NCBI GenBank assembly: GCA_013044385.1
Contig: JABEUN010000047.1
Coordinates: 1 to 64,000, forward strand
Reading direction: 5' to 3'
DNA length: 64,000 bases
Origin: Acidimicrobiaceae bacterium
GTDB taxonomy: Bacteria; Actinomycetota; Acidimicrobiia; Acidimicrobiales; Acidimicrobiaceae
Shown here piece after piece: positions 49,472 to 51,137 of the stretch; position 1 is the first letter of the stretch; each line of letters starts with the position of its first letter. The notes beneath the pieces were generated by a model that was not told the DNA's origin, made no database searches, and saw only the letters and a list, made by a program, of their open reading frames with translations. Both the position numbers and the translations under genes were made by a program.

Positions 49472-50078
49472 TGCGAACCTCCAACACCCATAGCAAACTC
49501 CCAACCCAAACTGGCTCGCAGCTGATTTTTCTACGCCCATCCTAGGTCAGCATTGTGTGGATCGCCTTGGCCGTATGGTGGCTACTCCCTACCTTGGAGA
49601 GCCACTCACATGAATCACTGGGAGAAGGTGCCATCGGTCAAGTAGGGGATCGGAGTGTCCGGACTTGGCTCTCGCCAAGGTGCAAATCTAGGTGAGCCCA
49701 TCCGGTACTACTACTACGTTGAGGTGACCTCGCATCGCACCGAGTTGCACAGACAGCGGCGACCTGAGACCACAAAAAGATGGTAGTCCGGACGGCAAAT
49801 TCACCGTTGCCGATCGATTTCAATCAGGGATCGATGGCGATCCAGCCCGATTTGCCGCCAGACGACTCTGATGAAGAAACCATGCCGATAGCGGACCCGG
49901 GCCAGTCGACCAGGCAAGGAATAGCACTTTCCTTGCGGTGCTCCAGACTGGAAAAGATTGCGAAGGTCGGCTCTATTGCCCAAAGCTGGACTTCACGCTT
50001 CAAAACGACTCGGCTCTGCAAAAGATCGGATCTTGCTCCGGTTGGCACTCGCGAGCCTTGGCTGTTAGCCTCACAACA
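49472..50078. other. 600-bp gene-free stretch upstream of selD
   Basis: No recognisable gene on either strand and no tRNA-Sec. TAGCCT (50066-50071) at the right edge lies seven bases before the selD ATG. Confidence 0.45.
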
Positions 50079-51137
50079 ATGGAACACGCGCCCAGGCTGA
50101 CGTCTTTCAGCCACGGAGCTGGTTGAGCCTGCAAGCTCGCCCCTGGCGACTTGGACCAGGTTCTGGCCCGTCTGAAACCTAGTAGTTCTAATGAGGTCTT
50201 GGTCGACGCCACGACTGGGGACGACGCGGCCGTGCTCAAGTTCGGAGATCGGGCTATCGTCTATACAGTTGACTTCATCACCCCATTGGTCGACGACCCG
50301 TTCAATTGGGGAAGGATCGCAGCGGCGAACTCCGCTTCAGATGTATATGCGATGGGTGGAATCCCCAAGTTCGCACTAAACATCGTCGCTTGGAACAACG
50401 ATGACCTTCCAGACTCGATCCTGGTTGAAGTGTTAAAGGGAGCCGAATCGGTCGCCCGTCAGGGGGGCTGGATTACAGTAGGCGGACATACCGTAACTGA
50501 CAAGGAGCCGAAGTTTGGCCTGTCAGTTATAGGTGAGGCGGACCCCAGTAGGTTGTTACGGAACTCGGGCCTTAAGACCGGCGATACCATAGTGCTGACT
50601 AAGCCAATAGGTACGGGGATCGTAACTACTGCCATCAAGTCCGGTGTCGTGACCGAACACGACCGGATAGACGTGATCGAGCAGATGGCACAACTGAATG
50701 ACACTGCATCCCAAGCAGCCCTTCTCTTTGGCTCAGAAGCTGCAACAGACGTGACAGGCTTCGGACTCCTCGGTCACCTCTATAAGATGAGCCGGGCGTC
50801 CCATGTAGCCATAGAACTGAGCATCGGATCGGTACCGATCATTGAAGGTGTCGCCGATCTGGTGAGATTGGGTCAGGTTCCAAGTGGAAGTAAGCGGAAC
50901 TTGGCATGGGTTGAACCCCACCTTCAGATGAGCGAGGATCTCAAATCCGGTTCAGTCCTAGATGACACACTTCTAATGCTGGCAGACGCCCAGACTTCCG
51001 GGGGGCTATGTATTGCACTTGAGGCAAACAAGGTCGATCAAGCGATCTCATGGCTCTCAGAAAGGTCGGTAAGCGCTTGGCCGATAGCCACAGTGGGTGG
51101 ATATTCCGAAGACGGCCAGATCGAGATAGTGCCTTAG
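50079..51137 (+). CDS. selD: selenide, water dikinase SelD, selenocysteine-containing
   Basis: 352 residues if the in-frame TGA at 50124-50126 is read as selenocysteine. Around it the protein reads LTSFSHGAG-U-ACKLAPGDLDQ, the SelD active site, with Sec16 where many SelD have Cys and Lys19 matching the essential lysine. Downstream are TGDDAAV, IAAANSASDVYAMGG and the C-terminal ATP domain. SelD makes selenophosphate from selenide and ATP for selenoprotein and seleno-tRNA synthesis. The ATG at 50079 has TAGCCT seven bases upstream (leaderless). A start after the TGA (TTG 50151) would delete the catalytic residues. Confidence 0.92.
50142..50160 (+). promoter_or_regulatory. selD: candidate bacterial SECIS hairpin in selD
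   Basis: CCTGG (50142-50146) pairs with CCAGG (50156-50160) around a nine-base loop, starting 15 bases after the UGA. Bacterial SECIS hairpins sit in this range and bind SelB. The stem is short, so this is tentative. Confidence 0.4.

Follow-up and report, generated by a model that had tools for sequence, protein, structure and literature searches.

The gene at positions 50 079–51 137 of the window, the whole 64 000 nt stretch of Acidimicrobiaceae DNA analysed here, is almost certainly a functional selenoprotein SelD (selenide, water dikinase; selenophosphate synthetase), in which an in-frame UGA would be recoded as selenocysteine (Sec) by way of a downstream SECIS hairpin. SelD belongs to a long-known, classic selenoprotein family whose biology is already established; no bacterial selenoproteins are more widespread than FdhA and SelD (PMC1794560). 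What is added here to the first-pass annotation of this DNA is the position of the SECIS element, its covariation among relatives and the evidence favouring a leaderless start. The features are collected in Table 1.

Table 1. Features of the selD locus, in window coordinates; offsets (+) are counted in nt past the UGA
Feature	Position	Strand	Basis
TANNNT (TAGCCT) -10 box, putative leaderless promoter	50066..50071	+	24/47 orthologues with TANNNT 6–7 nt before start
selD, 352 aa, Sec at residue 16, ATG start, TAG stop	50079..51137	+	TIGR00476, PDB alignment
UGA codon at the catalytic position, predicted to specify selenocysteine	50124..50126	+	TGA at same codon in 48 sequences; tRNA-Sec, selA and selB in genome
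AAG codon, conserved Lys19	50133..50135	+	Aligned with Lys of GAGCGCK in 3u0o
Candidate SECIS hairpin GGACCAG-GUU-CUGGCCC, +30..+46	50153..50169	+	Pairing and covariation in 48 Sec sequences
Apical loop GUU, +37..+39	50160-50162	+	N1-G-U-N-N2 triloop

Translated with TGA as Sec, the region is a single open frame of 352 residues whose sole TGA is residue 16, and the protein begins MEHAPRLTSFSHGAG-U-ACKLAP..., with the U lying within SHGAG-U-ACK. The product scores 350.4 bits against the SelD equivalog TIGR00476 (cutoff 125) over residues 6–317, the match beginning before the UGA. The alignment with known SelD proteins that had been proposed as a check sets U16 and K19 on the Cys and Lys of the solved SelD 3u0o (GAGCGCK), in the glycine-rich loop near the N terminus. 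This agrees with the first-pass annotation in placing the TGA at the catalytic Cys/Sec position and an essential lysine at residue 19. Ordinary gene calling had also been expected to begin past the TGA, and the standard ORF list indeed opens at TTG 50151; such a call would drop the active site, and the gene model is corrected accordingly. The locus resembles described Sec-containing SelDs (PMC1794560, PMC13188914) in its equivalog match, in a UGA at the catalytic position with Lys three residues on, in a SECIS past the UGA and in the presence of selA, selB and selC in the genome. Nothing distinctive sets it apart from them: Ala, not Gly, follows the Sec, as in most of the relatives compared. 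The earlier view of this Ala as unusual does not hold, since it is the majority residue (36 of 48 Sec-SelDs, with Gly in the other 12).

The protein search on which these comparisons draw took in 147 genomes, from the genus, the family and the order. In 49 of them, the window genome counted, SelD has a single in-frame TGA; in 27 it has none. Among the loci read out, 48 SelD sequences of the order (again counting the window) carry TGA at exactly the window's codon, and the UGA is therefore not a chance occurrence. The peptide ahead of it (RLTxxSHGAG) is likewise conserved, and the rest of the frame stays open across 350 residues. Conservation of Lys within this set is not independent evidence, because the alignment script demanded Lys at +3 of Sec. 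Sec use, with SelD itself as a selenoprotein, is accordingly widespread in this order of actinobacteria. In several Sec-SelDs, Ala, Gly or Ser stands in place of the Cys two residues past the Sec (U-A-G-K, U-A-A-K, U-G-A-K, U-A-S-K; loci L138, L141, L143, L145, L147–L149, L151 and L152), so this Cys seems dispensable in proteins that have the Sec.

Upstream, the leaderless-type -10 box previously placed seven bases before ATG 50079 is borne out: TAGCCT stands with a gap of exactly 7 nt to the ATG, its first T 13 nt ahead. A TANNNT roughly 12 nt ahead of the start codon marks leaderless genes, and the box agrees in form with the leaderless signal reported for Actinobacteria (PMC3160421). A start codon is present in 47 Sec-SelD orthologues; TANNNT stands 6–7 nt ahead of it in 24 of these, against 6 % in shuffled upstream sequence. 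Eight of the 24 belong to a single genus and are close relatives, so the count overstates the number of independent cases. The selD transcript is probably leaderless, starting at or beside the ATG.

The candidate SECIS pairs positions 30:46, 31:45, 33:43, 34:42, 35:41 and 36:40, with an A.C mismatch at 32:44 in the window copy that falls at a pair kept in 46 of the 48 Sec sequences. Bases 34–35 (CA), 37–38 (GU) and 41–42 (UG) are invariant across the set. Pair 33:43 occurs as GC (30 sequences), UA (10) and CG (6). Pair 36:40 occurs as GC (26) and CG (10), and the switch from GC to CG at this pair turns Gln..Leu in the protein into His..Val. On average 6.48 of 7 pairs are formed in the Sec set, compared with 4.75 ± 0.14 in synonymous-codon shuffles (0 of 1000 as high), in a test that is not blind since the hairpin was chosen after viewing conservation in the same alignment. 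The 79 Cys homologues form 3.14 pairs against 2.92 in synonymous shuffles and show no hairpin signal at the matching place; this control set was gathered by a scan pattern with Cys substituted for Sec, which returns Cys forms by design and makes the Sec:Cys ratio uninformative. Folding energy points the same way, with a mean z, relative to synonymous shuffles, of -1.1 to -1.6 for the Sec set and close to 0 for the Cys set. Cys-type SelDs of the same order (TSCGG-C-AAKW clade) and of Pseudonocardia (SHGAG-C-ACK) are homologous and share the active-site layout, but have Cys for Sec and are without the hairpin signal.

The 48 sequences are related, and covariation was also counted on a tree built without the hairpin region, using starred branches only. 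For pair 33:43, base 43 changes independently four times and base 33 changes with it in 3.9 of 4, a number too small to give significance from the tree by itself. For pair 36:40, 0.7 of 4 changes are matched by the partner, which lends that pair little support.

The bSECIS model described in PMC13188914, which derives from Zhang and Gladyshev 2005, calls for a G in the first two apical positions, a distance of 16–37 nt from the UGA and an MFE of at most -7.5 kcal/mol. The window hairpin is like the model in its small N1-G-U-N-N2 apical loop at 32–33 nt from the UGA. It departs from the model in carrying the A.C mismatch and in its stability, which is a weak -6.4 kcal/mol for the hairpin alone and reaches -8.7 to -9.0 kcal/mol with more flank.

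Folding the bases after the UGA had been proposed as a way to find a SelB-binding hairpin. A hairpin is there, but at +30..+46 it sits farther from the UGA than the obvious fold. That obvious fold (+2..+40, MFE -20.6 kcal/mol) could itself be the SECIS of a genuine Sec-SelD, which we regard as improbable. It is the most stable structure for the 42 nt past the UGA (z -3.4, or -3.0 relative to synonymous shuffles), and in naked RNA its pairing of +2..+8 with +34..+40 is more stable than the +30..+46 hairpin. Strong as it is, its apical loop, CCU, is without the G demanded by the bSECIS model (PMC13188914). Conservation and covariation in the 48 sequences track the +30..+46 hairpin instead, and the larger fold was rejected as the SECIS. 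With the UGA in the A site its lower arm would also sit inside the ribosome, which counts against it. The +30..+46 hairpin, a SECIS within coding sequence with RNA-level covariation, is usable to find other selenoproteins in the order.

An active Sec-decoding system elsewhere in the genome was implied by the first-pass annotation, and its parts are present: selA adjoins selB on contig C27, from 1309 on, and tRNA-Sec (selC), with anticodon UCA, is on contig C41. A second intact selD, which like a lack of selA, selB and selC would have spoken against the assignment, was not found in the genome, the other AIRS-family matches falling in other proteins. The one such match that was read out, on contig C38, is a 311-aa ORF that is ThiL-like by eye. 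A search of the genome for selenouridine synthase (TIGR03167) likewise gave no match, which leaves Sec as the known purpose of SelD here, the Mo-hydroxylase selenium cofactor trait (yqeB/yqeC) aside. Order-wide, SelA occurs in 45 of 49 genomes with Sec-SelD, versus 3 of 71 without SelD; incomplete genomes may explain the exceptions.

A complete Sec machinery, together with a TGA kept at one codon in 48 sequences, a conserved RLTxxSHGAG peptide before it and a long intact frame after it, makes it most improbable that the UGA is a true stop arising from sequencing error or decay. The locus would in that case be a pseudogene or a truncated SelD without the catalytic Sec, read from TTG 50151, where the mechanical ORF list opens. 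Less probable still is that the genome decodes UGA as another residue, such as Trp or Gly. A UGA within a conserved frame would fit, but more long ORFs in the window end in TGA than in any other stop (22 of 41), and a plain reassignment of UGA is thereby refuted. The in-frame UGAs that turned up lie at the established Sec positions of SelD and FdhA, and the genome holds tRNA-Sec (UCA), selA and selB.

The second selenoprotein, FdhA of a formate dehydrogenase (C9:75099-76967, motif CNRT-U-HAPS), is encoded 24 kb from selD on the same contig and has a GGUCU-loop hairpin 18 nt past its UGA. The Fdh operon extends over about C9:72260-77075, outside the window (L179 8260-13075, minus strand). It resembles the cytoplasmic Sec formate dehydrogenase FDH3 of Actinomycetospora chiangmaiensis (PMC7176365) in subunit make-up and size, on which the likeness rests: an FdhA of about 640–680 aa with Sec, an FdhB of about 614–632 aa and a third subunit of about 310 aa. 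The Sec FdhA is split, with TIGR01591 positions 49–672 within the UGA-bearing gene and positions 1–49 in the closing part of a NuoG/HoxU-like Fe-S gene that lies two genes down from fdhA. Many genomes of the order likewise have an FdhA with one TGA that starts near profile position 50.

Taken together, these features suggest how the gene may work. Transcription would start at or beside the ATG, giving a leaderless selD mRNA. With the ribosome at UGA codon 16, SelB carrying Sec-tRNA-Sec would bind the G-U-loop hairpin 32–33 nt downstream and insert Sec; we infer this insertion, and the catalysis that it would allow, from the sequence features above. The 352-aa SelD is predicted to use Sec16 and Lys19 to convert selenide and ATP to selenophosphate, which SelA would use to convert Ser-tRNA-Sec to Sec-tRNA-Sec. 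Both SelD itself and the Sec formate dehydrogenase on the same contig would in turn need this product. Since SelD would itself be a selenoprotein, it follows that its selenium dependence would be autocatalytic.

The differing elements of the two genes raise the speculative and rather doubtful possibility that SelB of this lineage accepts two SECIS spacings within one cell, about 18 nt with a GGUCU loop in FdhA and 32–33 nt with a short, weak GUN triloop in SelD. If so, the SelD element would constrain the protein itself, with Q..L or H..V as paired alternatives, and SelD recoding could be less efficient, which might provide selenium-sensing self-control.

In a quick tree, the window SelD groups with eight family members of genus g6 and one other sequence (SH-aLRT 92), and it sits on a long branch of 1.05 changes per column. 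Four congeners (G001–G004, 76–85 % complete) yielded no SelD and no convincing SelA (one marginal match, E 5e-4), and their FdhA, full-length in three of the four, is without TGA. Sec use therefore differs within the genus, and the trait is patchy inside the family. Loss of the trait in the congeners is a fair reading, but given the incomplete genomes and the long branch it may instead have been gained by transfer. Elsewhere in the order, a Sec-SelD and a Cys-SelD (SPGAG-C-ACK) of one family are sisters (L032 and L134, family f47; SH-aLRT 96), a pair that probably reflects a recent replacement of Sec by Cys.
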